A DNA stretch of 64,000 nt, from positions 134,057 through 198,056 of the forward strand of contig MU119288.1 in NCBI GenBank assembly GCA_014904845.1. Reading direction: 5' to 3'. The notes beneath the pieces were generated by a model, which was not told the origin of the DNA, did no database searches, and saw nothing but the letters and a program-made list of their open reading frames with translations. The position numbers and the translations under genes were made by a program. This DNA is from Acephala macrosclerotiorum. Taxonomy: Eukaryota; Ascomycota; Leotiomycetes; Helotiales; Mollisiaceae. Below are positions 7,657 through 42,273 of this stretch, in pieces; position 1 is the stretch's first letter, and each line of letters opens with the position of its first letter.

Positions 7657-8246
7657 TTACTGTGCAGTATATCCTCCATCAACAGGTATACACGCCCCTG
7701 TGACCCAGCTCGCATCATCACTTGCCAGGACCAAAGCCATTTTCGTGATATCATTGGGCATACCCACTCCGTTCAATGGATGCAACTTGATCAAAACTTC
7801 CAATGGCGTCATATGTGTTGTTGTTTCCGCATTCATTGCCGTTTGTGTATCTACCGTTCGCTTTAGTAGGACACTCGAAGCGAGGAAAAGGGGCCACGCA
7901 CACCCAGGACAGATCACATTAACACGAATTTAATACGGCGTATGCTCCAGAGCCACTTGTCGAGTAAGATTTGACACGGCACCTTTCGACGCCACATAGC
8001 ACGCTTCACTTCACATTAGCAACATCTTTTTCCGCTCGCCACGCCTTCCCCTCCCAAGTTTCAAAAACTCACACTGGTTCACCCCGGCAACAAGACCCAT
8101 GATACTCGACATATTCACAATAAATCCCCTCTCTCCATTCACCTTCACTTCTTGCTTTATCATCTGAGCAAGAGCGTATTTCGATCCTAGAAAGATTGAT
8201 TTCGCGTTCACGGCAATGATTATATCCCATTTCTCTTCTGTAGCTG
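7657..8246 (-). pseudogene. short-chain dehydrogenase/reductase remnant
   Basis: The minus strand reads an SDR from its middle onward: EKWDIIIAVNAKSIFLGSKY, IVNMSSIMGLVAGVNQ (catalytic Ser region), an intron near 7990-8070, YVASKGAVSNLTRQVALEHT (catalytic Tyr-xxx-Lys retained), IRVNVICPG, then MALVLASDDASWVTGACIPVDGGYTAQ and a stop. Two lesions are visible. The N-terminal Rossmann half with TGxxxGIG is absent upstream of about 8246, where unrelated sequence begins. An in-frame TAA also lies between EHTPY and IRVNV at about 7931-7933. NAD-binding is therefore lost and the gene is dead. A second possible stop lies close to the intron. SDR identity is secure from the C-terminal half. Confidence 0.85.
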
Positions 8247-9091
8247 TTGGTATTCTTAGGGATACTTATTACTAGTAATAGACTAGAAACGAAGAGATAA
8301 AGTAATCTTAGTTATATTCGTTGAGTTGTAATTGTTCTCTAATAAGTACGTAAAAGTCGAAGGATAACCTCAACTCTAGCGCATGCAGCGCTAGTCCTAA
8401 TCCGGCATAGTACCACACGTGACTACTATATTGTACTCACAAACATATTTAGCTACACTCCAAGATTGAGCTGTTGCGGCTCTCATGCAAGCATCGAGGT
8501 TTGGCAGGGAATTCAAGAGCAGAATAGCAACTCAAAAATGTATTTGTTATACTAACTTCTGTGCTATATCTCATCGCTTGCTCGTATATGTTTGAGCGCA
8601 ATTCAACCTTCACTGACCTCTTTGATTGTCAGGCATCCTCGAACCCCAGCCGCATTTCTTCATGCACTCTCCTGGACCTACTCCTTCTGCCTCCGCACCG
8701 AGAACTTGCTAATATCATCATGCATCCCCCCGCGGACACGTCTCTTCCTGATACTCCAGCCTAGAGGCCCTATCAGCACTCGCATATCTTTAGTACTGTG
8801 AAAAATGACTCACGCATCGAGATCCAAATCCATAATGGAACATTTGCGTTATCGATATTGACATTAACTGTCATGCGCAAGTCTTCGACTGGTATCCGAG
8901 AAAGGTGTTGCAATCACTTCCCATAGCGGACATGCTGCAAGCCTCGCTACAGAGTCGATATAATCCATTCGAACGCCGAGACCTATGTGGGATTGTTACT
9001 AGGCATGTGATGCATCGCATCTACTCGAAAACCCATTCAAGCATTCTATAGAGTTAATTCGCTTCGGCCAAAACTTCGCAAGTATTGTTTT
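8247..9091. other. intergenic, nothing recognised
   Basis: The sequence replaces the missing N-terminus of the SDR remnant. It has no long open frame and no inverted repeat I could pair. Confidence 0.4.
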
Positions 9092-11297
9092 TCAGGTTGC
9101 AGGAGGCAGTCGCTCGGATCGTGGACTCGGCGTACACCAGGTAGTGTCATCGGAAGAGATCACAATTATCGGCGAGCCAGGGCTTTCAAGTTCTCCATCA
9201 GATCCGATGGGAGGAGAGATATTATTGGTTGGCAGAGAGCTGTGATGAAGTGGTAGTGGTTCCTGGGATGTTTCCTCGTGTTGTTCCACCATACCTGCAC
9301 CAGCACGAGACGAAGAGGCATGCCCCTGGACATCGGACGAAGGCCGAACCGCCGGCCACGTCCCATTTCTCACCCTCGTAGACGGTGACAAAAACTCAGT
9401 CTGAGAACGTAGCACTCTTGGTGGGTGAGGAGAAGCAGCTCTAGACGTCTCAGGTAAATCCTCATCACTCCGTCTCGATCTCACACTAGCCGCGAAACTC
9501 GCCGCTCTCGCAAGTCGATAATGCCCATCCGCTTCACGGATCTTCCTGAATTCCTCCTTTGTCTTCTCTAATTTATCATTCTTCAAACCTTCGCCTGGGG
9601 TTTCAGGAAATTCACCAGATTTGCCAAGCTTGAAGCCAGAGTCGTCAAACATGTCGGGCGCGGCGGTACCAAGGGATTTGAATATCGCGTAGATACCTTT
9701 TGCTACTGTGCGGCGGTAGCCTGCGTCCCCTTCTTCTGCTTTCTTGACCTGGCCTCGGTGGTCCTTTGTGAGTGATTGCGGTTTCATTTCTATCTCTTGT
9801 GAGTCTATCTCTTGTGAGTATCCTTTCTCGTCGTGGATGACGCTGTGAGGAAGATTGGAGGCATCGCTAATATCGCCAAAATTCGGTGGAGAAGAATGAG
9901 GCGGGGATCGTGGTGTTGGTCGACGACCCCGGGTGTCTTCCCTCACCAAGCAATCGCAGCGGTGATGCTCTGGGGTATTTGGCTTTTCTTCATTTTTGGT
10001 GGGTGGTTTGGAACCCCTCGTTGCCGCAAGAACGTACAATGACCCTAGTATAGCGAGGGTTGTTCCAGCGATCGGTGCCCATTGGCCTGCAGAATTTGTG
10101 AGTGGGCCATGGATAATCTGATTATAAAGGTTGCATACCAATAGCTTTGATGGGCTCGGTCTGATAGTAGACTTCTTGGCTCCAGAAGTTCCGCTCGCCC
10201 ATGATAAGAATCGCGAATACCGCAGCGCCAAACACCGGGACTTCTACAGCTCTCAAGAAGAACCTGATCACCTCGTTCATCTTCTTGATGTCAGCGTTCT
10301 TGATCGCCTCAGTCTTGGTCTTGGATTGCTCGAGTTCGGCGCCATCTCTGTCTTCGCTCGATTTCTCGATTTCTTCCTGATTTTTATCGCCAAATCGGTC
10401 TTTCCAATTGATTTCAAGAATCTTCTTCCACATGGACACCAGTGACAAAATGGCTGGAATACAACAACCCGCCGCGAAGAGCGTGGCTGTGTCAACAGTA
10501 AGTCTCTGAGGTGTGGGGATGACATAGATGTTGTTTGCCGAGCCTTGTCGTAACGGCGAGAACGGGCCCAGGTTGACATCGCAAGTGAGGCCGCATGTGG
10601 TGTTACCGTATGGAAAGCTTTTGATGGAAGTAATGGGATTTCCATTGTTGTCTGTCGGGCATGGGGAAGGGTTCACGCGAAAGAACTCGACTGTCAAGCT
10701 TAGAAGACCTGGAGACGGGTTAGCTATGAGCGAGCACCGGGTCCAAATTCCACTCACCCGAGAGGACAAGACCTGTCCAGACGAAGATGATATTCCGACC
10801 AGGATCATAGAAGTAGGTCGTCGAGAGCATGACGGTCACTGGCGCTGCCAAGATGCCAATTGAGCACAATTGGAACGCTCCGTATATGTCCATATCGACA
10901 GCACCTGGATCAAGGGGTTAGTTTTCATGGCGCATCCTCGGCATAGACAACTCACCATCCACATGAAGCGCTGCGAGCACGATGCCATGAAGCGCTGCCA
11001 CAGCCGGAAAAAGCAATGCGGCTGCCAAGCACGCGGTTTTGAGCCATTCTGACTTTCTAGCGAATACACAAGCCGCAATCAGGACGTAGTATCTGGAGAA
11101 AAGGTGGAGGATCAGCGTCGTTGGGCATCTTGGCGCTGGGGAAACACAACTCACAATATCCTAGAGCCTGGGCCATACTGGCCAGAGACTGGGAAGGCGC
11201 AGATGACTTGCAGAGTATGATTTGTCGCGTTGCCCGTGGCGGTCACATTTCGAGGAACAAGAGTGTTCAGCAGCGAGGCCGATGAGAGCGCTGGCAT
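9092..11297 (-). CDS. polytopic membrane protein of unknown function with long disordered tail
   Basis: Exons (minus) 11297-11155, 11092-10956, 10904-10758, 10708-10139 and 10086-9092 close to 663 aa. The N-terminal half has about six or seven membrane segments (for example YYVLIAACVFA, LAAALLFPAVAALHG, IIFVWTGLVLSG, TLFAAGCCIPAILSLVSMW, FFLRAVEVPVFGAAVFAILI). A large extracytoplasmic loop between them holds paired cysteines and NTTCGLTC. The C-terminal 300 residues are hydrophilic and low-complexity (SPPHSSPP, SSRAGAG, ESPGSPIIVISSDDTTW). No enzymatic motif is visible. The layout resembles the many unannotated fungal seven-helix proteins with long cytosolic tails, but a receptor role would be a guess. 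All introns are 49-63 nt with canonical ends, so the model is strong even though the function is not. Confidence 0.85.
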
Positions 11298-16914: not shown

Positions 16915-17928
16915 TTACACTAGTGGTAATGTCCTACCTACGGGATCTAACTCCTTAATACCTTCCGGAGTAACATTAATCAATTTCCACTCCTCATCGC
17001 TAACATTGACCTGATTTTCCTCTTTCCACCTCAGAATCCCCTCAAAATCCCTGCATTTCTGCTCAACACTAAAATCCGGAAACGGACCCGGCGTACCCCG
17101 TACTTTCCCAAAAGTAATCATCTCCATATCAGCATGACACATCAACGCCTGCAACAACATATACTGGCAATGCCCAAGATGTGCTTCGAAGGGGAATGAG
17201 TCTGTATGAGTCCAGAATTCGCCGTAGTAGTCTTTGTGAGCAAGCTTGCGAAACATGTTGAGGCAGTGGATTTGGTGGAAGACGTTGGGGAGCGCCATGT
17301 AGGTCTTCTTGTTCGGGTTGGGGTGGTTTGGAATGTTGTAGCTAGACGGCCAGGGCCAAAGCTCCGAGGGGTTTTTGCCCGTTGGGATCATTTCTGAGGC
17401 GGTGAAGGCCAGGGCGTGAGTATCGGCCAAACGCTCCCACGCCGCGTCGACGTCTGGAGATGGTGGGAGTTGGAAGAGTGATGGTGGATTCTGAGGCCAG
17501 AATGAGCCGTTGGTGTGGATGTTGGTGAAGCTGATGGGGAGCTTGTCGAAGATGGGTGCTACGAAAGGTCAATCCTGGTTACATGAAAGTTCGAGGAAAG
17601 CGAGACGATGGAGATGGCGCTTACAGTACGTGCTCGTGAGTTTGATTAATCGATTGTTGCTGTTGGTCTCGATGCTCTTCGTGTTCTGGTAGGAATGGAA
17701 TAGAACAGTAATTGCGGCGATGAAGAGGAGGCAATTGATTGTCGCGATGATGACGCTGAGATTAGCGATACATGAGCTCGACGGGTCGAAGTCATGTCGT
17801 GTATTACGCAACTTCAAGGAGGAGAGAAATCGTCTCCATGGTGAAGTGGGAGAATGATGTTGGAGTAGAAACTCTTCGTCCTCGCGATCGTTGTTGAGGC
17901 TATCATTGTCCTTCACGGGTTGGTACAT
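16915..17928 (-). CDS. UstYa-family (DUF3328) oxidase-like membrane protein
   Basis: Exons (minus) 17928-17625 and 17558-16915 give 315 aa. The layout is that of DUF3328/UstYa: a short charged cytosolic N-terminus, one membrane helix at about residues 54-78 (IANLSVIIATINCLLFIAAI) and a lumenal domain. The HQIHC motif is at about 196-200 and HLGHC at about 228-232, the two HxxHC copper/metal-type motifs of this family, with the PPSPDVDAAWERL signature before them. UstYa-family proteins perform oxidative cyclisation in fungal dikaritin RiPP pathways and act on other peptides. It diverges from the repeat precursor gene about 580 bp away and shares the intergenic promoter, which is the classic arrangement. 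The gene appears intact. The precise reaction is unknown. Confidence 0.92.
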
Positions 17929-18506
17929 TGTGTCTTCGTATGGTGTAGAAAGTGGTGGGGGTCTGGGATAGAAGTGAGGAGGGCTTCGGGGAATCAGTTG
18001 TCTCAACGAAATAGCTTTGATCAGGCTCTGCGGACAACGTCAAGGCCAAGTTATTGTAGGATCCTTACCTCACAATTGATAATCACTTTCATGCTGGGCG
18101 AAGGAGCGTTTCGAGCAGTCTGCATCTGAGCGTGTGTAAGCGTGTGGTTACATCGCAGGGGGCGTAGGTAGACACCTGAAGATATCACACTTCATGGCTA
18201 TTCTTGAACCGTCGTGATTCCTTCGTTCACACACGCTCCTTTGTTGCAGATATGAATCGCTGTCAGAGAAGACAGAAGTGTTCGCTGATATGGCAGACAT
18301 ATTTGGAGCTTCCTGATATGGCACACTAGAGTCCTTCAGCCATCCAAGTAACCCGCAACATGTAGCCTTGCTTTTCAAGTTCAAAGGGGATTGCATACTC
18401 AGAAGGGCATATAAGTCTCGACTGTCCCCTTAACTTCGCATCAACAAACTTCTATCAAAAATACTCTCATCTCAAGCTAAACTTCTTCAATCTCGCCCTC
18501 GCCAAG
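17929..18506. promoter_or_regulatory. bidirectional promoter of the candidate RiPP locus
   Basis: This region lies between the divergent UstYa-like gene and the precursor gene. TATAAG at 18410-18415 lies about 95 nt upstream of the precursor ATG and is followed by a CT- and A-rich leader ending in CGCCAAG-ATG. Shared control of both genes is inferred from layout only. Confidence 0.6.
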
Positions 18507-19030
18507 ATGCAATACACCAAATTCCTTCTCTGCCTTGCAGGCGTCTCTTCCATTGCCTCCGCCTTGGCCATCCCAAGTGTCGAGAACGCTGTCTCTATCC
18601 GTGCTGAGGAGGCATACACCGGACCGGGAGGTAAGTGAAGCTCCTGAAAATTGTGATACTCCTGACCATTTACTGACCAAAGTGCAGGCGTGTCTATTCT
18701 CAACCGAGATGTTGATGCCTATACTGGACCTGGAGGTAAGCGAGCTCGGTCATGATTGTGTACCCCAGACTTATCTATGTTTAGGAGTTTCCCTCCTCAA
18801 CCGAGAGGTGGAGTCTGATGCCTACACTGGGCCAGGAGGTTTGTGACACTCATACTAAATGTACGATACTATGATTGACGATGAACTACGTAGGAGTGTC
18901 CATTCTCAATCGAGAAGAAGCCTCGACCGAGGCCTACACTGGCCCAGGTGGTAAGTTCACACTGGCACGAAAGCACAGCTAGTGCCAAATTGAATCATGC
19001 ACAGGTGTATCCATCTTGAACCGCAAGTAA
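18507..19030 (+). CDS. candidate RiPP precursor with four repeated cores, one intron per repeat
   Basis: Exons 18507-18630, 18688-18735, 18785-18838, 18894-18950 and 19005-19030 close to 102 aa. Residues 1-21 are a clear secretory signal (MQYTKFLLCLAGVSSIASALA). Four copies of AYTGPGGVS[I/L]LNR follow at residues 36-48, 52-64, 70-82 and 89-101. They are separated by acidic spacers (AEE, DVD, EVESD, EEASTE), and the protein ends in a single Lys. Each intron (57, 49, 55 and 54 nt) falls after the first base of the second Gly codon of the core, so each inner exon is symmetric phase 1-1. The Arg ending each core followed by an acidic spacer suggests proteolytic release. The conserved Tyr is a candidate for oxidative cross-linking by UstYa-type enzymes. 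The repeat sequence matches no dikaritin I know. A secreted KEX-processed repeat peptide without modification is the main alternative. Confidence 0.88.
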
Positions 19031-20355: not shown

Positions 20356-21195
20356 ATGGATGAAGCCTCCATTAACTTGCTTCGGCCATCCTGGACAAAA
20401 GAAGTTCATGGGTCATGTGACCGGTCTATCGACGGCACTGAATTCGAAGCCGAGGAGCAGTTCAGAGACGCACAAGCTGAAGCAAAGAAACTCAAGCGAT
20501 CCCGATCGATGTTATATCTCTACATTGGACTTCTTGCGATGATAGAAGCACTTGCTTTTATTGCATATATCCAGGTTTCCAAGATCGACGTTGCCTCGTC
20601 GAGCCTTCCGACGCCCACCACATGGAAGCATTGCGGCAATACATCTAAACAAGCAATCGCAAACAACTGCGTCTTGGATTTCATAGCAGGTGCTTGGGTT
20701 CCAAACGAATGCTACGATCCGGAGCTAGAAGCAGAATTCTTCAATATCAAAGACTGGCACTGGTACGCGGACGCAGACGGCGAACAAGAGCTCTCAATTG
20801 AAAGCATCAGAAAAAATGGAGGACCAAATCCGATATATGTTTCGCTCGAGTACCACTGGGTCCATTGCGCGTATACGTGGAGGAAGCTGCATCGTGCGAG
20901 GATAATGCAAAGGCCGATTGATACTCATGTCGGAGACTATGAGCATACTGTGAGTAAGTCGACTTCCTTGAGCCATATTTCCTCTTCTGTTAGTTTCAAC
21001 TAGTTCTACTCGCTGTAATGCCAGAAGCAGACATTCGGCTCCCGAATAACTCCCGATATGTCTGAAAGAAGTATACTGACTCAAGGATGTCTGGTGCAGG
21101 TGCATTGTGCTACTGGTCTCGCAGCTCATAAAGATGGCAGCGACACAAGGCCTGTCAGCAAGTTCACTCGTCACTTCGAGACCTGTACATACTGA
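20356..21195 (+). CDS. membrane protein with two HxxHC motifs, distant UstYa-like
   Basis: Exons 20356-20949 and 21100-21195 give 229 aa. A cytosolic N-terminus of about 50 residues precedes one membrane helix (about 52-74, MLYLYIGLLAMIEALAFIAY). The lumenal part has several cysteines and two motifs: HWVHC at 167-171 within EYHWVHCAYTWRKLHRA, and HTVHC at 197-201. The 150-nt intron lies exactly between the Thr and Val codons of the second motif. The type II topology and paired HxxHC spacing parallel UstYa/DUF3328, but the surrounding YTWRKLHRA block differs and belongs to a separate group of fungal proteins. It lies 1.3 kb downstream of the precursor on the same strand. A second tailoring oxidase is a reasonable inference, not a demonstration. 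Confidence 0.82.
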
Positions 21196-21457
21196 ATAAT
21201 AGTCAAGAGTCGCGTCGTGAATGGTTATGGTGTTGTGGGTTCGGGTGGACACGGGGCTTTCCATACTACTTGATCGGAGTGAGTAAGGGGCATCTAGTTC
21301 AGGAGATGGCTACTCAATAGTTGTGCCCTCAATATGAATGAATTGCTGCTGCCTCGCGATCTTTTCTGAAGCTTTTGCAGCGTGTTGTTGATCTTTTTCG
21401 AAGAAGGCAGGTCGTCAGCACGGAAGGCGTCCGGCCACATCTCTGCCATGCCACGTG

Positions 21458-21994
21458 ACGCGGGTACGGCACACCATGTGGTCGAGGTGTGCAACTTTCG
21501 AAAAATCGAAAAATCGAAAAATCGAAAAATTGAAAAAATTGAAAAACCGAAAAATAATTAAAATATTAGTTTTTTTTTAATTAAATTATAATAATATTTT
21601 GTATTAAAAATAATTATAAATTTTTTTATTTTTTTATTATAAAATTATATTTATAAAATTATATTTTAAATATTAAATTATAAATATATAATTAAATAAA
21701 AAAAATTATTTAATGTATATTTTATTTTATTATAATATAATTAAATTATAATCGTATTTTTAATTATAATTATAAAATATATTTTTATTTTATTTTTTAA
21801 TTAAATAATATTTAATATAATTTATATTTTATAAATATATATATATTTATATTTATTTTATATTTTAAATAAAAACAATTTTTATAATTATTAAAATTAT
21901 ATTTTTTAATGTAATTTAATGCAAAAACGATATTTCGATTTTTCGATTTTTCGAAAGTTGCATACCTCGACCACATGGTGTGCCGTACGCGGGG
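21458..21994. mobile_element. 521-bp TIR element with AT-rich core
   Basis: The left end at 21466 begins ACGGCACACCATGTGGTCGA. The right end (reverse complement from 21986) begins with the same 20 bases. The inverted repeat extends about 50-60 bp through GCAACTTTCGAAAAATCG units with very few mismatches. The flanks are ACGCGGGT (21458-21465) and ACGCGGGG (21987-21994), an apparent 8-bp target duplication with one mismatch, as hAT elements make. TA at both borders is an alternative Tc1/mariner reading. The core is nearly pure AT and encodes nothing, so it is a non-autonomous element later degraded. Confidence 0.85.
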
Positions 21995-22093
21995 CAACTT
22001 CACTTCATCTTCGCAGGCATCCGTTGTGCTCCCCATCTGTCTTGACATCGATGTTATATCTTCCCAAGGACGTCAACATAATACACCCTCAAA

Positions 22094-22803
22094 ATGCGGT
22101 CTCGCAACTATAGTATCGCGGCGTTGTGGCTAGCGATTGCGAGTCCATGCCTAGCAGCAATTGCAGAGCCGCTTTCAGCTCAACAACCACTTCTACCAGA
22201 GATAAAGTTGAAGTGGAAAGGCTGTGGAGATATTAACAACCATACCTTTGAGTGTATTTGTGTCAAATTCGAAACCCCTGGATGAGACTGACAGGTAAAG
22301 GCGCCCGAATTGATGTTCCGATGGATCATAGCAGCCCATCTCGGGACAAGACTTTCTCAATTCCTATCACCCGCATGCTGGCTACAAACACGTCAGCTAC
22401 TAACGGGACAACCATCATTCTCAATCCTGGAGGTCCCGGAGGTACGCTTAGCTCAATTCACTGCATGATTCTGGCTGACGAAATTCAGGGAGCGGGGTCA
22501 ACTTTCTTTGGAGGGGTGTAGAGAATTTGAACAAGATCCTCGAAGAGGGATTCCACTTACTCAGCTTTGATCCTCGAGGCGTGAATGGCTCTATTCCCCA
22601 AGCCCTTTGCTATGCTAGCCCTGAGCAAAGGGCTGAGGAAATTGAGAGTAATCCTCGGAACCTCGAATTTGAAGCTGGGAAGATGTACACGAGAGCAGAG
22701 AACAAGGGGAAAGCTTGCGAAAATACAATGGGCGAACATGGGGCCTATATTGATACTCTCCAAACAGTTGCCGACATGAATTCAATTCTTGACACTATTG
22801 GTT
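22094..22803 (+). pseudogene. S33/TAP-like alpha/beta-hydrolase peptidase, truncated
   Basis: Exons 22094-22253, 22295-22441 and 22489-22803 join cleanly. They give a signal peptide (LWLAIASPCLAAIA), then the FEC-KGARIDVPMDHSS block, IILNPGGPGGSGVNFLWRG (oxyanion loop), LLSFDPRGVNGSIP and TLQTVADMNSILDTIG. At 22803 the frame stops exactly where a 1.5-kb AT block begins. The GxSxG nucleophile and the rest of the fold, normally some 300 more residues, are missing, so it cannot be catalytic. The intron at 22254-22294 is only 41 nt. The intact ancestor would be a secreted tripeptidyl-aminopeptidase-like enzyme. Whether it ever belonged to the neighbouring peptide locus is unknown. Confidence 0.85.
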
Positions 22804-24322
22804 AAAAAAAGATATAACGTTTATTTTTGCGTGCCGAAAAAACTAATATATTAAAAAAGTTTTTTAATTCGAAAATTTTAAATTTTTATTATATATATAT
22901 ATAATTATAATTTGTTTATTATTATTTTTTAAATATTCGATTTATAATTAAAAAAATATTGTAATTTAATTATATTATTGAAAGCGTTAAAAATTATAAT
23001 AATAATTATTTTTTAATTTATTTTTAAATTTCGAAATTATAATATAAAATTTTAATTAAATTTAAATATAAAATATATATAAAATATTATATTTATAATT
23101 ATATATATAAATATAATATAACGTTTTTTTAAAAAATTTTATATATTATATATTTAATTTTTTGTATATTTATATAATATTAATTTAAATTATTATATAA
23201 ATAATTTAATATTTAAAAATAAATTAAAATTTAATTAAATATTTTTATTAATTTATTATTATATAAATTAATAAAATATAATTATATTTAATAAAAATTA
23301 TAATTATAAATTTTTTTTAAATAAATTTTTATTTTAAATATTAAAATTATTTTACGATTATATAATTTTTAAATTTAAAATTTAAAATTTTTTTAATATA
23401 AAAAACGAAAATTTTTAAAAAAAATTTTTAATATAAATTAAAAATTTATTAAATAAATATTATAATGTAAATATTAAAAAATTTAAAATTATTATTTTAA
23501 TTTTAAATTTTTATAAAACGTTTAAATTAAAAATTTTTAATTTAAAAATTAAACTTTTTATAATTTTTTATAAAAAATTATATAATTATAAAAATAAATA
23601 AATTAAAAACAATATATATTATAAAAAAACGTAATTAAAAATAATATAAATAATTAATATATTAATATTATAAAAAATATTAATTATACAAATAATATAA
23701 AATTATTAAATAAAATTTTTAAAAAATAAAAAATAAATTAAAATTATAATTTATTTATAAATTATTAATAAATAATTTTTAATTAAAATTAATTTATAAT
23801 TATAAAATTATAAAATAAAATTATTAAAATTTTAATTAATATATAATTATATAAAATTTATAATTAAATATTAAATAATTTTATTAATTTATTATTATAT
23901 AAATTAATAATATTTATATTTTTTAAAGTTTTTTAAAACTTTTTTTTAATATTATAAAATCGTTTATTAAATTAATAATAATTAATATTATAAATCGATT
24001 TTTTAATAAAAAATTAAAATTAAATTAATAACGTTAATAAAATACAAATATATATTATTAAATAATTCGTATAAAATATTAAAATTTTTAATTATAATTA
24101 ATTAAATACGATTTTTAAAAATTTATAATTTATTTATTTATTTATTCATATAATTATTTATTAATATTATTCGTATTTAAATTTTTTAAAATAAATTTTA
24201 TAAAATAAATCAATTAAACGATTTAAATTATATATATTTATTTTTATAATAAAAATAATAAAATTTCAAATATTATTTATATATAAAAATATTAAAAAAT
24301 TAATATTAAAATACGCATTTTA
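22804..24322. repeat. RIP-like AT block
   Basis: About 1.5 kb consist almost entirely of A and T. The few surviving C and G bases lie mostly in CpG steps (ACG, TCG). It has sharp edges: the S33 remnant on the left and GC-normal sequence at about 24323 on the right. It is probably a transposon copy so mutated that its identity is lost. No frame remains. Confidence 0.9.
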
Positions 24323-24779: not shown

Positions 24780-27318
24780 ATGCGGCACCGTCAAACAACA
24801 CCAAGCTCTTCCTCCTCCGACAGCGATGGGTCAGACATCGAGAGCTGCTTCGATACAGAGGACGAGCAAGAGAAGACTAATGCCGACACCGAGCCAACGG
24901 ACGTTGATACCGATGTCGACGATGTCGACGGATGTGATGAGGCAGATTTGACGTGGATCGCTAGAGAGGAGAACGCCCACTTGCCAGAGTACTACCTCGA
25001 CCAAGAGAACAACTCCGACGAATCCGAGGATGAAAATGAGGACTATAGCGATGGCAGTCTCCTCCTCCTGGATATGATCGAAAGAAATTTCTATCGGTGG
25101 ATACCCTATTCTCTTTTTGCCTGCCGTCTTCTGCTATCGAATCGCTGATCTGACTCTCTTCACAGGTATTGCAAGTATGTACGGAAGGATCCTGCCCGAG
25201 TGATGCAGGCCGTCTCTCGCCGTACTCTCAAGGCCTTCTTCGAATGGATGTTGAATCAACGTCAGGGGAAGAGTGGGAAAAAGCTTGCAGGCATCCAGTC
25301 GGCCAGCACGCTCGGGACATACTGGAAAGTCTTCCGGCTCGTGTACGAACGAGCGACTGGAGAAAAGATCGAGAGGAAGATGAACCGTCACATGCATCGG
25401 GTGAGTAGCGTTCCCTGTCTGCCCGCTCAATCTAGTCCGAATCATCGTAGATGAAAGCTAATGAAACATTTGTCGCAGGTCCTCAGAAAGCTGGCGAAGA
25501 AATACCGCCTGTCAACGAAGAAGCGCGATAACGTCGCGATGTATATCGAGGATCTCGCAGGCGTCTTACAGACCAACTTGACCACGACGAAGCAGAGGTA
25601 CACACATGGCCGGCAGCGGATCCAAACTAGCCTCTTTTGCCAGCTAGCTATATTCTCCGCAAACCGACCTTCAGCGCTCCTAAAGCTCCGCTATGGTGAC
25701 ATCGCGGTGAACCTGCTTCGGGACCCCAGTGGCGGGCCCCATCGAATCCTGATCGAGTTCACGTGCGAGTTTACGAAGAAGTATCTCGGCACAAAAGATG
25801 CGTAAGTCTGGACCTTGAACCTTTTCTCATCCCTCTTGAACCCCTCTTTCTTCTATTCTAGTCGAGACATGCGACTTACATAGAAGCTAGAAATACGTTT
25901 GTACTCCCCGAGATTATCTTTGATCCGTCCCTGATCCTCAGTCCGCACGTCGCCCTCCTGGGCCTCATCTTTGCCGACAATGCGTTCTTGGCCCCGAGTC
26001 TCACATCGGCCGAAAGGATCAGCGAGCTGGATATCCCGTCTGGCTATGAGCAGCTGCCCTTGCGTCTAAAGCCGAAGATGGCTGATATCCCCGTCTTCCG
26101 CAAGTCTATCAGGACGCCGTATGGCTGGGAGATCTCGCCCGACCAGCCACTGCCGTACACGACTCTCTTGAAGTGGATGAAGCGGCTCGGCGTGCTTACT
26201 GGGTTCCCGCAGATCACGCGTCCGTACTGCCTCCGATACGGTGCAGGCAACGCCTTCAACCAGAGTGGTGCGTATCATGCGGCCCTCTTCTCGCAACCCC
26301 GCCCCTATTCGCAGTGCGATATGCTAACCGTAGACTGACAAGTGACGTGAGCGACGCGCTCCAGAACATGATAATGCAACACGCCAAGATTGACACCTTC
26401 ATCAAGCACTACCTCCGGCGGAAGGTCACCGTTGACACGCGAGCTATCGTCTCTGGCTACGAACCTCAGCGCGATCTGATGCGGGCGGCTTGTCGGATGA
26501 CTCGCTGGATCGATCCTAACCGGCCGCAAGAACTCACACCCGAGGAATCCCTGTCCGTCAATCAGGATCCCGTCGTCCGCCGCCTCGTTGCGAAGCGGGA
26601 GAAGTAGAAGCGCCGCTTCCAGGGCACGGCGACACGGCAGCCTGGGTACCGGATCATCGGCCGCGCGATCTTCAACACCAGGCAGCGGCTGAGAACTGCG
26701 CTCCTCAAGTACGTTCAAGAGCGCTGGGATCTGGAACACCCGGTCGACGAGATCGAGCGGCAGCTCTCTGGGCTCAAGCTCAGCCAGGACGTGAAGACCA
26801 CCTTGGACCAGAACGATGAGATGCCCCCGCTCCAGAAGCGCTTGGCAGAGACGGTAATGACGCTCCCAAGCACGACTATCGAAAAAGAGTTCCGCCGCCG
26901 CAATGCGGGTATCGATGCAGTCGCTGCCTACTGCCACTTCCAGGAGGGGAGAGCTGCCGCTCTACCACACAAAAAGTCGTCTACGCGACGAACGAGTCCA
27001 ATGCCGTCGAAGGAGACCAGCCCCCAGCTGGCAGCCGCCCAGGCTGAGAAGCAAGCGTTAAGTGACGCTATGTTGTTAGTGTTTACCGAGAAGAAGACTA
27101 CCACCTGCTTCCTCTGCTTAGGGGAGCAGAGCTTGCCGTTCGAAAAGCGTACTTACAAGTTTGCCAGTCCGGGAGACTTGATAAAGCACTTCAAGCGAAA
27201 GCATTTGGCCCACATCAAAGAAGGGGATCAGCTCAAGTGCAAGGTTTGTCGAATGTCTTTACAGTATAAGGCGCATCTCCAGAATCACGCACTGAGCATC
27301 CATGGAACCGTTTTCTAA
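24780..27318 (+). pseudogene. DUF3435 tyrosine-recombinase-like protein with C2H2 fingers, probably inactive
   Basis: Exons 24780-25096, 25166-25400, 25479-25801 and 25891-26267 read an acidic N-terminus and then the DUF3435 domain: YCKYVRKDPARVMQAVSRRT, a core-binding region, and IFSANRPSALLKLRYGDI with the first catalytic Arg. QITRPYCLRYGAGNAFNQS follows, then (after about 26345) DVSDALQNMIMQHAKIDTFIKHYL with the His and the Tyr of HYL. Downstream are two C2H2-type fingers (CFLCLGEQ...HFKRKH and CKVCRM...HALSIH). Two defects are visible. No canonical splice pair joins 26267 to 26345 in frame, and TAG stands in frame at 26605-26607 (CAG to TAG is one transition). DUF3435 includes the Starship captains, but C2H2-tailed forms are also widespread as dispersed repeats, so captain status is open. 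Confidence 0.85.
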
Positions 27319-29809: not shown

Positions 29810-31606
29810 TCACTTCTGCGAAGGTTGATAATCAAATTCGAAGAAGCTCACTCCATCCGTCAGATGGTCTCGCACAACACTTCGCAACTCATCTCGGATA
29901 TCGTCGGTGCCAGAAACTTCCATTCATTAGCACGGCCAGAACGGTAGACTAGGCAACTCACCTGTGACAAGTAACTGGCCATTTCTCTCAGTTTGTCCCC
30001 CAGATTCAAGTTCTCTCTCCACGAGTGTCTTTGTATTCCAGTCGATGTTGTCCACCGGCTTCTTCTCAATATGCTCTCCTGCAACTTCTGCCCGAAGAAT
30101 CTCTCGCAATGGAGCTTTGCCCGGATAGACCTTTGCACGTTTCCCAAAGGACTTTTCGCCAATATCGCTTGATTCGCAATAGATCGAGATGGCTAGAATC
30201 TGTTCTCTGCTGTTAGCGAGACCAAGAAAATGACAGCTCTTGTAGTACATACCCAACCATCATCCAGCGTATCCTCGTTTAATGCACCGTTAAGAAGCGG
30301 CTGGGCCGCGATTGTAACGTCTGGCTCGGTCAGATCTCTGTTTTAGAGGAGGCGAGAGGGGTCACGACTTACCAATGTCTCGAACCTGCCAGACCAGATA
30401 GATTCGACGAGCACGAACCTCACGAGTATTGTAGCCGTGAATAAACTGCTTTAGATATGGCAAATGTGCTGCGATCCCGAAACCACTAGCTACCATAAGG
30501 ATGTTCTCACAGTCGTCCATGGAAATGCTCTTCCCGTGAGGTCCACTAAATAGCACCCAGGGGTTTATGACATGCCCACTCTTGGCATGGTACAAGAGTT
30601 CTCGGGTCAAGCCTCTCCGAGGCTCAATGAAGAGATCTAGATGATCTTGCGGCTTCTCTGCCCACGAGATCACCACAAATAAGTGACTCTGCAAGAAAGA
30701 CCAAAAACTGACCGAAGGCATCCACATCCAGAGGTTGATGGCTTGCCCGGCCTTGACGCCAAGCGGCTTCTGAAGCTGGACGCGGACCCTGACTGCGCCA
30801 TATTCGTGGGTAATGTGGGCTCGCGCGGCACCGTAACGGAAGACACCGTTTCGGCGGATGACCATATAGCCCTGGGCAATGCACATGAACAGAAACAGTC
30901 CTGCCGAGATGTATATATACACGCGGGGAAAAGCTTTCTCGGAGGGCAGGTGTCGCCAGATGGAGTAGGCAGCGAGCGCGACCAAGACCTGATGGGTGCG
31001 GAGAAAGAGTTCGTAGGAGGGTCTGCGGAAGAGAGACAGAGAGAGTAGAATAATAAACCCTAGTGATGATGCTCTTTATGCAGAGTGTCAGCAGAGAAAT
31101 GTGGCCAAGAGACTACTTACTATAACCGCGAACTTATTCGGGGGCAGGTCCAAAGGAAAGGAAGGCTGCGAGGCTACCATCACTAACACGTGGAAAATGG
31201 TGAGCACAACCGCCGTCACGCCTGCCGACCGATGAATCTGCCGAAACGTGCTGAGGGTCACACCTAGCAGATCTGCGAGAGTGCCGAGGTGAGGAACTGC
31301 GAACAGTGGGATTAGGTTGATCATCGCGAGTGTCCCGACTCGAAGTCCGACTTGTGAGATAATTGTATCCCAGAACTCGAAGCAACATATATTCTCTGCG
31401 ATGTAGATCAACTGCACTAAGATATCGGCTCGACTCCACGGGCCTAGAAGCCGGTGTCGATGAAGAATATAGCGGTAGATCAGATGCTTTGATACAAGAG
31501 GAGAGAGATACTTGGCGAGGCGGGCAATCAAGGGGAGACTATTGATGAGTAGGAGGAGGCAGAAGCTGCCGCCCATGACAATAGCATATACAAGGCTGAT
31601 ATCCAT
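29810..31606 (-). CDS. ferric reductase / NADPH-oxidase-like transmembrane oxidoreductase
   Basis: Exons (minus) 31606-31117 (or 31121), 31059-30373, 30335-30253, 30199-29962 and 29916-29810 give about 534 aa. Several helices precede the haem domain, in which two His pairs with 14-residue spacing are visible: IHRSAGVTAVVLTIFHV and THQVLVALAAYSIWRH. An FAD-binding region follows at WSFLQSHLFVVISW, where the usual HPFT is HLFV. The NAD(P)-binding region is ILMVASGFGIAAHLPYLK and the end is DELRSVVRDHLTDGVSFFEFDY. The enzyme moves electrons from cytosolic NADPH across the membrane to Fe(III) or Cu(II). The strong donor GTAAGT at 31120 puts the next exon out of frame, whereas GTAGTC four bases later restores it. 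Ferric reductases are recurrent Starship cargo, and a DUF3435 gene lies 2.5 kb away. Confidence 0.87.
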
Positions 31607-32326
31607 AATTAATGAGCGAGAGCGAGGATAATTATTCGCTATGCAGATAAAGACAGACGATTGTGGAGGACAAGGCGAGAACAAGGTCGATCTCGAGAAA
31701 GAAGGGAAGGAGGGAGGAGGGAGGAAGGGGAAGAGAAAAGGGAATTTGAGAACCGAGCGAAAGGACGGTTATGAGGCCCTGCTAGGAGAATCGAATTGCA
31801 AAGAAAATGGTGGAATCTCTGTGCTTACTAGAGTTGAGAGATAGTCTCAATCAAAAAGTTGCAGGCCAGAGGTGGTTGCTTTGTGATCCCAAACAGACAT
31901 CGATGGTCATCCCCATCCAAAATGTGCGGTCCCGTGATCTTAAAATGTAAATGCTTGAACTGGAGAGGGTCTAAACTGGACACCGCCTATTTTAAGGCCT
32001 TTCGGTGGGGACTTCCCTACCAAAGGTAGCCAAAATCGGCTGCTCCCAAAAAACAGGTGAGTCATGGAGGGAATTTGGATCGTTTACAACGTCTTTTTAA
32101 GGTTTCTGTAAAGGCCTAAATCGGACAGGCGGCTGACTTTAATGGCATGTTCGTAGTGAGGATTCCTTCAAATGTAGACAGATCGTGTAACTCTTAAGCA
32201 TGCAAAATTCAGAATTGGCTAGGACATAAGAATTGTCGTCGAGGTAAAGAGGAATAATTTTGGAAGGTTGGGTTGGTCACCTGATTCGCGAGGTCCTCTC
32301 CAAAACAGTCGAGCTCACTAAAACGA
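31607..32326. other. promoter region of the ferric reductase, containing first copy of a direct repeat
   Basis: There is no gene. A purine-rich stretch (31690-31760) precedes sequence that recurs near 33 kb. Confidence 0.45.
31700..31930 (+). repeat. direct repeat, copy 1
   Basis: This stretch shares long matched blocks with 32975-33215 in the same order: purine-rich start, AACGGTT/GACGGTT, GGATCATCGAACTGCA versus GAGAATCGAATTGCA, then TCAATCAAAAAGTTGCAGG versus TCTAATAAAAAGTTGCAGG and GTGGTTGCT. It is clearly homologous but diverged. Confidence 0.75.
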
Positions 32327-38102: not shown

Positions 38103-41100
38103 ATGCGTCGATCTCGGTTCTCTGAACAAGAGCTGAGGCTCGAGGCAGAGCGATTTGTCAAGTACAGAGGCACCGCACGTGTCAGACTCGAAGTGCTTCA
38201 TTTCCAGTGGAACGAGCCGAGAGAGCTCAGTCGGAAGAATGTCGAGAGGATAAAGGAGATCTTCCGAGGGGACAAGAAATCATATGAGAACATCCGTCGG
38301 CTGGACCCTCGAAACCATATTCCTGCTGTGGTTGAGCAGTCTGACCTGGACGATGCCATCCTCGCTTCTAAGATATCGTCGGAAAGATTGCTGAGTAATC
38401 CCGATAACGATCCTCCCGTGCTGAAATTTGCCGCGGGCTATCGCCTCACGTGCCTCCACGGACGTCACCGCATTCAGGCCGCTCGAGAGATCTTACCTCC
38501 GACAGATGCATGGTGGACGGTTGACCTATATCTCGCAGATATGAGCATCTCCCAAAGATGCAAGGACGAGGCTTACTAACCCTTTCCCCAGACGCCAACC
38601 CGGAGCTCAGAACGACCCTAGTTGAAGAATATTCGAACGAGGAGAAACCATCCGATGGAGAGATCTATCGCAAGATCCGGCAATATGAGCGAGAGGGCAA
38701 TGTCTACTTCAAGAAGCGGTGAAAAGCCCATCTCTCCGACCATGGACGGCGGGGCCTTCGACAGCTCTGCGACCATGGGGATGGAGAGTTCGTTGCCGCG
38801 TTTGACAAGCTGCTAGACATTCCCGGGCTGTGGAACGGCATGAGAATCAGCACGGTGCATAAAATGCTCGACATGAAGTGCGACGAGGTAGGTCTGCTCT
38901 CCGTTGGATTGTTTACTTGCTCACGCTACGTACAGGAGGCTCTACACTATCTCGAGCTTATCAGAAAGACCTTCTACAGGGTCTTCGACAAAATCCTCCG
39001 TGGAGACGAGACCGCCCTTCAGAGGGTGGATCAAGCCACCGTTAAAGCATTCGAGCTCAAGGCCCCGAGATACTCCAAGCGGGACGCTCGAATCTTGCAA
39101 AGGCAAGTGCTGAGTGGCCAGATCTGCAGCTTGTTCAGCCAAGAGGAGCGTGAAGCGATCTGGAGTGAGTTGCGCTCTATCGACTACCTCATCCCTTCGC
39201 TCTTCACCTTCTTTGAAGATCTCAAGTACCTCCGCGCGTGCGCCGACTGTTTGAAGCGGCTGGTGAAGGTGTCGCGTAGAGACACAGTCCGCACCGCCTT
39301 TGATAGGAAGTTCCCTTATACGGAGGAGGCAGGCGACCAATACGTCGTCGAGGTTGCCGAGTCCACCATCGTGGACAGATCAGGACGAGCTGTGAATCGC
39401 TTCGACTTAAAATATCGGCACTTGTGGCTCTTCGCGATGCGGGATTACCGAGAGATGCCGCCGGACGCAAAAAAGAAGAGCAAAGACCTGCTCGCCAAAA
39501 CTGAAGTCCAGAGAGCGAACGAAGAGGTCTTATCAAGAGGAGCGAACCTAGCCCACCGAGTAGAATTTGTATCTGACGAGATCGATGCCTTGAGGCAACG
39601 GTCATCGGATGGTGAGATTGCGCTCAACGCTCTGCTCAAGGCTCGGAAACCTGACCGCTACCAGTACGACCAGACCGTCTTAGAAGCCAATGTGGCGCAA
39701 ATCGTGAGATTGTTTGCGACAGCTACCCCACTTCCTTGTGAGTATTCGAGCCCAGCTCTCGTTTGTGACAATCCTGATGCGGCAAGAAAGCGATGCGGGT
39801 TTCCAGACGAGGATGCTCAGCAACAGGACAGCAAGTACCTCTTTATACCACACATGCACCATGAGAGCGATGAGCAGGGCGAGAAGATCACGTCATTCTT
39901 TGTGCGTCGATCTGTATACTTGGCCTTTTTCGGTAAATCGGCGGATCTCGACATGGATAGCGGTCCTGATCTCTTCCAATCCCAGCCACGCGATGCTCAA
40001 CGAACTAGACTATCAGCATCTCAAAGATCGGAGATGGATGGAATAGAGCGGTCTCGGCGGCAGAGGATGGAGCGTGAAGAACTAGAGAGGGCGGAAGCGG
40101 AGCAGCGGGAACGGCAGGAACGGGAGAGACAAAAACGGGAACAAGAGAGATTGGAGCAGGAGAGGCTGGAACAAGAAAGACTAGGGCGGGAGAGACTTGA
40201 GCGCGAGGAGCGGGAACGAGAGCAGCAAGCTCAAGAGAGGTTGGAGCGGGAGAGGCTGGAACTGGAACAAGAGCAAGAGAGACTGGAACAAGAGAAAGAG
40301 CAAGAGAGACTTGGGCAAGAGCGGCTAGAGCGCGAGGAGCGGGAACGGCGAGAACAAGAGCAGCAAGCTCAAGAGAAGCTGGAACGGCAGAGACTGGAGC
40401 GGGAGCAGTTGCAAGAGAGGCTGGCACAAAATCTACGAGAGCGAGAGCTATCAGAACAAGACAAACAGGAGCAAAAGAAGCGGGAACAACAGAAGCAGGA
40501 ACAGGAGAAGCGAGAACAAGAGAAGCGAAAAAAGGAGGGGCAGCGACAAGCGACACGGGAACAAGAGAGGCGAGAAAAGGAGGCACGAGTACGAGAGAGG
40601 ACACTCAAAGATTTCGAGCAAACTAAAAAGCGTCACACGCAAATTGATATGGAGAGCGTTGTCTCTGGTGCCGCCGGAAATCAAAGGGGTCTCCCTGCTG
40701 CGGGCCAAGAACGTCAACAAGTCCAGACAGATGATCGAGAACTGGTAGCAGCAGGCCCTAGCTCAGACACTGCTCGCAATCCACAGCCTCTAGTAAACGA
40801 TCAAGTAAGCAAGCAACAGGAGGGGCTGGAGCAAGAGAGAATCGAACGGGAGAGGTTGGAGCAGGAGAGACTTGAGCAAGAAAGACAGAGNNNNNNNNNN
40901 NNNNNNNNNNNNNNNNNNNNNNNNNNNNNNNNNNNNNNNNNNNNNNNNNNNNNNNNNNNNNNNNNNNNNNNNNNNNNNNNNNNNNNNNNNNNNNNNNNNN
41001 NNNNNNNNNNNNNNNNNNNNNNNNNNNNNNNNNNNNNNNNGAGAGGTTGGAGCAGGAGAGACTTGAGCAAGAAAGACAGAGACTGGAGCAGAAGAGGCTG

Positions 41101-42273
41101 GAGCAAGAAAGACAGAGGCTGGAGCAAGAAAAACAAAGGCTGGAGCAGGAGAGACTGGAGCTGGAGAGAATAAAAGAGAGATTAGAGCGGGAGGACTTGC
41201 AAGAAAGATTGGAACAAGCTTTACAAGCACAAGAAAACTTAGAACAAGAGAAGAGACATCAACAGATACAAGAGAAGCAAGAGCAAAAAGAGCAAGAGGA
41301 GGAGACGCGACGACAAGAGACTCGGGAACAAGACAGACGGGACCAAGAGAAGTCACTCAAAGATTCGAAGCGAACCAAAAAGCGTCACACACAAATTAAT
41401 ATGGAGAGCGTTGTCTCTAGTGCCACTAGAAATCAAATGAGTCTGTCTGCTGCCGGCCAAGCACAAGAACGGCGACGAGTCCAGACAGATGATCGATCGG
41501 ATCAAGAACCGGTGGTGGCAGACCCCAGCTCAAGTGCTGCTCACAATCCGCAGACTCCGGTAAACGATCCAACCACCGGGCAACAGGAGAACCCAGAACA
41601 AGAGAAGTTTGATTAGAAAAAGTTGCACGAAGAGCTTGCACAAGAGCTACGAGAGCAAGAGAAATTGGAACAGGAGAAGGAGAAAGCAATGAGACGTAGA
41701 GAAAATCGACAGGAACAAGAGAGGCAGCGAGAAGAGAGGCGAGATCAAGTGAGGCAGGAAGAAGAGAGGACAGCCGAGTCAGAGGGAGATGTAGAGCTAC
41801 CTCAAAAGCGTCCCACCACTGCGGCCGGTCGGGAACCGGAGGCAGCAGAAACTACTAGATCCAAGAGGCAACAGGTACGGTCATACTCTCTATCATTCAT
41901 TTCAGCGAGCTTACTTCTACAGGTTCCAACTCCACTAGCTCAAGAGAACTCGGGCGTTATTCGAATCACGTTCAAAGTACGGGAACGAGGCGTGTGGAGA
42001 ACCACTCAAAGTCTCCTTGTTGATTCCTCTGATCCGTCCAAGGTCGAGCGAATAGCGGTGAAGTACATGAGGAAGAAGGAACAGATAAGGTTGTATGATA
42101 CTGACTTGAACATTCTGACCTTATTAATGTGTTTTCAAGCTGCGATCGCCAACGGAAGCAACATGCTGCTTTTGATTCCAGGGAGGGAGATCGACATCAA
42201 CGAAGAGCTGGAGTCTTTTGTTTCTCAGTTGTTATCTGAAGTAAACTCGCAAAAGGAGGCTGGCAGCAAGTGA
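38103..42273 (+). pseudogene. DUF3723 protein with long E/Q/R coiled coil, decayed
   Basis: The first exon carries the DUF3723 hallmark RLTCLHGRHRIQAAREIL followed by WWTVDLYLADMS. The domain continues after 38613 with ELRTTLVEEYSNEEKPSDGE, a 48-nt intron (38888-38935) and RQVLSGQICSLFSQEEREAI. From about 40030 the protein becomes a roughly 500-residue coiled coil of EQERLEQ-like repeats. The C-terminal domain (GVIRITFKVRERGVWRTTQS, 41950-42270) follows an intron at 41873-41921. Lesions: no normal splice joins 38570 to 38613 (a 32-nt GC-AG gap would be required), TGA at 38720 where Trp is expected, and TAG at 41614. A 150-N gap sits inside the repeat. DUF3723 is one of the recurrent Starship-associated families. 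Its function is unknown. Confidence 0.85.
40891..41040. other. assembly gap (150 N) within coding repeat
   Basis: The gap lies in the coiled-coil repeat. The 41 bases directly before it and the first 41 bases after it are identical, so the two contig ends may simply overlap. The frames on the two sides cannot be compared across it. Confidence 0.95.

Follow-up and report, generated by a model that had tools for sequence, protein, structure and literature searches.

A locus in the root-associated fungus Acephala macrosclerotiorum probably makes a new modified peptide, and would do so from a precursor gene in which an intron interrupts each of the four peptide cores at one and the same codon. 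We analysed a window of 64,000 nucleotides (contig MU119288.1, positions 134,057 to 198,056 of assembly GCA_014904845.1; all window coordinates below count from its first letter), and the reading that we favour with reasonable confidence is that the locus is a dikaritin-like RiPP cluster. Its precursor would be secreted, cut after arginine in the context [V/I/L]-x-x-R↓(A/D/E), cross-linked at tyrosine by a UstYa enzyme, probably together with the product of a second gene, and released as a small cyclic peptide. The case is built on the gene model, the selection acting on the core, a divergent UstYa gene 578 bp away, a linked second gene, precursor-like repeats in at least 6 of 20 further UstYa stretches of the genome, and a tyrosine in four of four cores. 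The species itself is named in a study of mycorrhizal genomes (PMC7550596, available in part, as were all sources given here by PMC number).

A precursor gene with an intron inside every core

The precursor gene lies on the plus strand at 18507..19030 and is assigned five exons (18507-18630, 18688-18735, 18785-18838, 18894-18950 and 19005-19030, with the stop codon at 19028-19030) from a splice model, codon statistics and exon matches to the genome. Joined in this way, the exons translate into the 102-residue product that the original prediction had claimed, the gene model being one read from sequence. The four introns measure 57, 49, 55 and 54 nt, all have GT-AG ends and all are in phase 1; intron 3 begins with a weak donor, GTTTGT. 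Four exons of the precursor found matches in the genome, all at its own locus, and the gene apparently has no annotation in the databases.

From its N-terminus, the product consists of a hydrophobic segment, a short pro-region ending in SIR, four repeats of an acidic spacer followed by AYTGPGGVS[I/L]LNR, and a final lysine. The first 21 residues (18507..18569, plus strand, MQYTKFLLCLAGVSSIASALA) resemble a signal peptide, with a hydrophobic stretch after Lys5 and then an ALA site as the likely place of cleavage. Judged by hydropathy, the expected secretory signal seems to be present, and the precursor appears to carry the kind of secretion signal found in dikaritin precursors. The cores, with the caret marking the intron, are AYTGPG^GVSILNR (core 1, 18612..18707, residues 36-48, around intron 1 at 18631-18687), AYTGPG^GVSLLNR (core 2, 18717..18804, residues 52-64, around intron 2 at 18736-18784), AYTGPG^GVSILNR (core 3, 18820..18913, residues 70-82, around intron 3 at 18839-18893) and again AYTGPG^GVSILNR (core 4, 18932..19024, residues 89-101, around intron 4 at 18951-19004), all on the plus strand. 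The four nearly identical 13-residue cores foreseen at the outset are therefore real and differ by one residue in all; several near-identical cores are also what a dikaritin precursor is expected to contain.

All four introns cut the same glycine codon, that of the last Gly in GPGG, in phase 1. Exons 2, 3 and 4 each run from the latter portion of one core through a spacer into the opening portion of the following core, and because every intron is in phase 1 at this codon these exons are symmetrical (phase 1-1). No single exon contains a whole core. In our gene model an intron at one codon of every core is the most unusual feature of the locus, one that was implied by the original prediction and passed over without remark. 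In the literature searched, which covered few subscription papers, we met no description of dikaritin or KEP repeats whose cores are split by introns.

The core is conserved as a peptide

Relative to core 1, cores 2, 3 and 4 differ at 9, 7 and 12 nucleotides, 28 in total, which change one amino acid. Over the six possible core pairs, 48 differences fall at third codon positions, 6 at first and 0 at second positions (pS 0.65 against pN 0.038). When 28 nucleotide differences were placed at random 20,000 times, the resulting amino-acid changes averaged 16.8 and never numbered fewer than 9, and none of the 20,000 placements was as conserved as the single change observed. The core is therefore under selection at the level of the peptide, and chance is an unworkable account of its conservation. 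Since this selection acts on residues to either side of the introns, it also gives the splicing model support drawn from sequence.

Translation that reads through into introns 1 to 4 would meet a stop 1, 5, 1 and 9 residues past GPGG, respectively. Pairwise identity among the introns is 50-64%, compared with a mean of 48% and a maximum of 57% after shuffling, and the introns thus look distantly related, as duplication would leave them; identity among the cores is 69-82%. We suggest that the array grew by duplication of the symmetrical phase 1-1 exons. A core that becomes complete only after splicing would follow from such a construction. Because all cores are split at one codon and every intron brings a stop no more than 9 residues past GPGG, a bolder and rather unlikely reading is that the peptide is splicing-gated: regulated intron retention would set how many cores are made, if any, release would occur at single arginines in [V/I/L]-x-x-R, and the gene would belong to a class of intron-split precursors overlooked by protein-based surveys, with the gene on contig C293 described below as a relative in design that bears KR.

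Spacers and candidate cleavage sites

The spacers AEE, DVD, EVESD and EEASTE vary in both length and sequence and are 50-67% acidic, in agreement with the acidic spacers predicted for this gene. Between the cores there is no dibasic KR, RR or KK, only single arginines; the sole dibasic pair in the precursor is the RK at C-terminal residues 101-102, and the other four arginines stand singly. Their contexts are alike (VSIR↓AEEA, ILNR↓DVDA, LLNR↓EVES and ILNR↓EEAS, the arrow following the arginine), with Val, Ile or Leu always at P4 and Ala or an acidic residue at P1'. In all four spacers the residues just before the core tyrosine are Glu-Ala or Asp-Ala. Such X-Ala ends resemble STE13-type sites as presented in the available part of PMC9769878, yet the spacers do not form regular dipeptide arrays.

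Dikaritin precursors are described there by their dibasic sites (PMC9769878, in part). With none between its cores, the present precursor falls outside the formal definition, and we refrain from classing it among the dikaritins, although we infer that it works like a dikaritin precursor. Of the dikaritin-type RiPP originally proposed, the secreted multi-core precursor, the UstYa neighbour and the tyrosine in every core hold up, whereas the dibasic sites between cores are absent.

Two genes with paired HXXHC motifs flank the precursor

The UstYa-family oxidase gene occupies 16915..17928 on the minus strand, with exons at 17625-17928 and 16915-17558 read by eye. It encodes 315 residues that match PF11807 (E 3.3e-49) and contain the motifs HQIHC and HLGHC. 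From end to end, its spliced product shows 100% identity to P0002, the NCBI protein BDZ45DRAFT_745966 of the Leotiomycete Acephala macrosclerotiorum. The UstYa and precursor genes are divergent and separated by 578 bp (17929..18506). On this sequence evidence the locus has what is expected of a dikaritin cluster, a UstYa (DUF3328) gene that carries two HXXHC motifs and lies close to the precursor. UstYa genes in the plural had been placed beside the precursor; one neighbour is indeed of Pfam grade, divergent and 578 bp away, but the other belongs to a distinct double-HXXHC family.

This second gene, at 20356..21195 on the plus strand (exons 20356-20949 and 21100-21195, 229 residues, motifs HWVHC and HTVHC), sits downstream of the precursor, which is thus flanked on both sides by double-HXXHC genes. 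Its first 201 residues gave no match to PF11807 up to E 5, and a precomputed Pfam domain is absent in all 26 relatives; by Pfam, then, it would not count as a member of the UstYa family. Comparison of its family profile with that of UstYa gave a probability of 5.5% (P 0.007), the two profiles aligning weakly and only in the surroundings of the first HXXHC. In a 24-row alignment of the second-gene family, 4 of the six motif His and Cys columns are invariant and 2 are conserved at 90% or more. Models of the second-gene relative P0039 (mean pLDDT 82) and of the UstYa protein P0002 (73) both contain a long N-terminal helix followed by two helices with HXXHC near their starts. The model of P0039 suggests that the second gene encodes one N-terminal transmembrane helix, which with two HXXHC motifs would give it the layout of a UstYa protein, and we call it UstYa-like for predicted layout and motif alone. 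Sequence searches of solved structures with both enzyme families found none at E ≤ 1, and fold searches with both models gave no real match, the best E values being 4.5 and 2.5. As the profile match is weak and local and the fold searches were empty, we claim no common descent for the second gene and UstYa.

The association of the two families extends beyond this locus. Among database relatives, P0039 (second gene) and P0005 (UstYa) come from the same metagenome source with a longest contig of 8,754 bases in both, and P0045 (second gene) and P0003 (UstYa) both come from Stipitochalara longipes with a longest contig of 3,126,735 in both; each pair therefore very probably lies on one molecule, in the metagenome on a short contig and in S. 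longipes somewhere along one scaffold. Phialocephala subalpina has a second-gene relative (P0037, 84% identity over 87%), and none of the named entries among the 33 UstYa hits is from that species, which counts against the favoured reading. In the A. macrosclerotiorum genome the second gene gave 12 matches, of which 2 are the gene itself and the other 10 are spread over six contigs. All 10 share a contig with a UstYa match; nine lie within 6 kb of one and the tenth (contig C37) 19 kb away. Only 0.58% of the genome is within 6 kb of a UstYa match, and the corresponding binomial value of 7e-20 overstates the association, as the matches are clustered. Seven of the 10 were translated: four have both HXXHC motifs, two (both on contig C226) have a single motif in the frame that was read, and the last, truncated where its stretch ends, has none. 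The UstYa-linked double-HXXHC proteins may form a further candidate enzyme family, one that is unrecognised by the Pfam release searched.

Pfam recognised no tyrosinase or S41 peptidase in the three spliced proteins and 34 of the window's 118 ORFs of at least 100 residues; the asperipin-2a cluster has neither (PMC6514808, in part). Rfam at gathering scores gave no match in the whole window.

Other UstYa loci of the same genome

UstYa gave 59 matches in the genome, merged by hand into 46 places on 27 contigs. We compared 20 further UstYa stretches covering 35 of these places, and at least 6 carry a precursor-like repeat peptide when sorted by eye (L021, L028, L029, L030, L032 and, less clearly, L031). 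Repeats in other stretches (for example L024 and L034) have frequent stops or look by eye like simple DNA repeats.

The most instructive is L028, a precursor-like gene of 108 residues when spliced (C293:43969-44527) with five LPSLEYNDNNAVE(D)KR/K units. Phase-1 introns cut its core, LPSL^EYNDNNAVEDKR, in three of the five units, and the other two are intronless; a divergent UstYa match lies on the opposite strand about 1.1 kb away. This genome therefore appears to hold at least two intron-split precursor-like genes. L028 resembles the window precursor in its phase-1 introns within cores, its divergent UstYa gene and the presence on its contig of the second gene's nearest paralogue (44% identity), but differs in its KR sites, its core, its two intronless units and a UstYa that is not the nearest to the window's. 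The window UstYa is about 35% identical to those on contigs C313 and C682 and 30% to that on C293, so that a simple duplication does not account for the two loci.

The remaining stretches are diverse. Beside UstYa in L021 (C234:67000-76999, plus strand, about 7700-9500) runs a long repeat-protein frame of the di-histidine precursor type, with units containing EPHHTEAQIAAKKAKAGARDVEV or EPHHTEAQIAAKKAKAGARDVEVEAR; di-histidine repeats beside DUF3328 genes are among the repeat types in the available part of PMC7329392. In L029 (C41:207200-217199, minus strand), UstYa matches lie on either side of a precursor-like gene in which RDIESIRKR-type units are numerous. Precursor-like repeats also lie beside UstYa in L030 (EDADAGMSFYKEKR, five copies) and L032 (GADEYGAKWA, three copies with KR).

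Homologues of the precursor and its core

Searching 5.8 billion proteins, with 3,720 candidates scored, we found no homologous precursor at E ≤ 1 other than P0001, an 81-residue ORF of the window itself, whereas relatives of both neighbouring genes were found. The search used predicted proteins that share five-residue words with the query and are 0.55 to 1.75 times its length, so unannotated relatives would escape it. Allowing one mismatch, AYTGPGG occurs at 10 places in the genome: four exact matches, all in the precursor, and six one-mismatch places, singly on six other contigs; the pattern read backwards, as a control, gave 2 places. Around four of the six, no repeats were seen in short stretches, two of which were read on the strand opposite the match. 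A text search of the literature for YTGPGG returned nothing, and the claim that this core matches none known stands in both the protein database and the literature text. We also considered the ascomycete alpha-pheromone precursor and rejected it, as the Leotiomycete peptide has two conserved cysteines (PMC6339444, in part) and the core here has no Cys.

Discussion

We propose that the precursor is routed into the secretory pathway and cleaved behind the single arginines in [V/I/L]-x-x-R↓(A/D/E) into four peptides of 16-19 residues, and is then trimmed. The conserved tyrosine of AYTGPGGVS[I/L]LN would be oxidatively cross-linked by the neighbouring UstYa, probably joined by the second double-HXXHC protein, and the end product would be a small cyclic peptide, presumably with a macrocycle at tyrosine. 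The computed values for the predicted peptides are 817.41 (2+) for both AEEAYTGPGGVSILNR and DVDAYTGPGGVSLLNR, 932.46 for EVESDAYTGPGGVSILNR, 975.97 for EEASTEAYTGPGGVSILNR and 539.28 for YTGPGGVSILN, and cross-linked forms should be 2.016 Da lighter. Weighing against this scheme are the missing dibasic site, the missing homologous precursor, the failure to recognise a peptidase or tyrosinase in the 34 ORFs scanned, and a second gene that is not tied to UstYa.

The strongest competing explanation, though an unlikely one, is a precursor of linear secreted peptides of the KEP type that a kexin-like protease sets free and that stay unmodified, with UstYa serving something else. In the available part of PMC7329392, a DUF3328 gene is missing from the 15 closest genes of 78% of KEPs, and PMC9769878, also in part, records unmodified KEP peptides as well as products apparently cut after a single arginine when KEPs were expressed in a foreign host. 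Here, however, UstYa is the immediate divergent neighbour, double-HXXHC genes stand on both sides and tyrosine occurs in four of four cores; in the same KEP survey, DUF3328 genes are commonest at the position adjoining the KEP gene, and repeats contain tyrosine in 65.6% of KEPs near DUF3328 genes against 38.2% of others (PMC7329392, in part).

We regard it as highly improbable that the product is an uncut secreted repeat protein, for example of the cell wall or apoplast. The lack of a dibasic site between cores would suit such a protein, but not its size of just 102 residues, a short core kept strictly while spacers change in length and sequence, or the adjoining UstYa. Equally improbable in our view is that the repeats are real and the gene is fading or silent. 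The weak intron 3 donor points that way, as do AT-rich tracts some 3-4 kb off with a hydrolase-like frame ending at one of them; strong purifying selection among the cores speaks against it, and both UstYa and the second gene read open and full-length.

If the locus is the dikaritin-like cluster that we favour, its closest parallels are ustiloxin, phomopsin and asperipin-2a, dikaritins that likewise have a secreted multi-core precursor beside UstYa-family genes and tyrosine in the core. YTG recurs in FYYTGY, the core of asperipin-2a, whose cluster of four genes includes just one UstYa homologue (PMC6514808, in part). The precursor here departs from dikaritins in lacking dibasic Kex2 sites between cores, in having an intron in every core and in the core itself, and, unlike in ustiloxin- and phomopsin-type clusters, neither a tyrosinase nor an S41 peptidase was recognised among the ORFs scanned here. 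Epichloecyclins offer another likeness: GigA has four repeats (PMC6514808), as here, and its cluster, a small one from a plant-associated fungus, includes a DUF3328 gene as well as one of unknown function (PMC7317419); the GigA repeats, however, carry KR (PMC6514808), the cluster includes a kexin gene (PMC7317419) and the core is another (both sources in part).

KEPs share with our precursor a signal peptide and short tandem peptide units, but they are defined by Kex2 sites and were mined from predicted proteins (PMC7329392 and PMC9769878, in part). Surveys with these two requirements would probably miss unannotated genes that lack dibasic sites between units. In all, 7,878 KEPs are known, 2,560 of them stand-alone (PMC7329392, in part), and with thousands of private cores on record a new core alone is ordinary. 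What is new here is the combination of an intron inside every core, no dibasic sites between cores and a linked double-HXXHC family. The gene slips through both survey filters yet sits in a seemingly working cluster; if our reading is right, a search beside UstYa genes for repeats that phase-1 introns interrupt could bring hidden precursors to light.

Surroundings of the cluster

Between the second gene and a hydrolase fragment lies a 541-bp AT-rich, MITE-like element (21456-21996) with 69-nt terminal inverted repeats that are 93% complementary. The fragment, at 22093-22805, represents the N-terminal portion of what by its motifs, read by eye, is a secreted alpha/beta-hydrolase-like gene, and ends at an AT-rich stretch, which at 23.0-24.0 kb has a GC content of 2%. 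Pfam gave no match on a 108-residue piece of it, nor was PF08386, the family to be expected for its C-terminal part, matched on this contig. To the right of the cluster, at 25545-26931 (plus), 30365-31768 (minus) and 38723-41170 (plus), are DUF3435, two ferric-reductase-domain ORFs and a DUF3723 ORF, a set typical of Starship giant transposons. DUF3435 gave three PF11917 matches in the window, two with an internal stop when read without regard to introns, and 40 in the genome when counted exon by exon.
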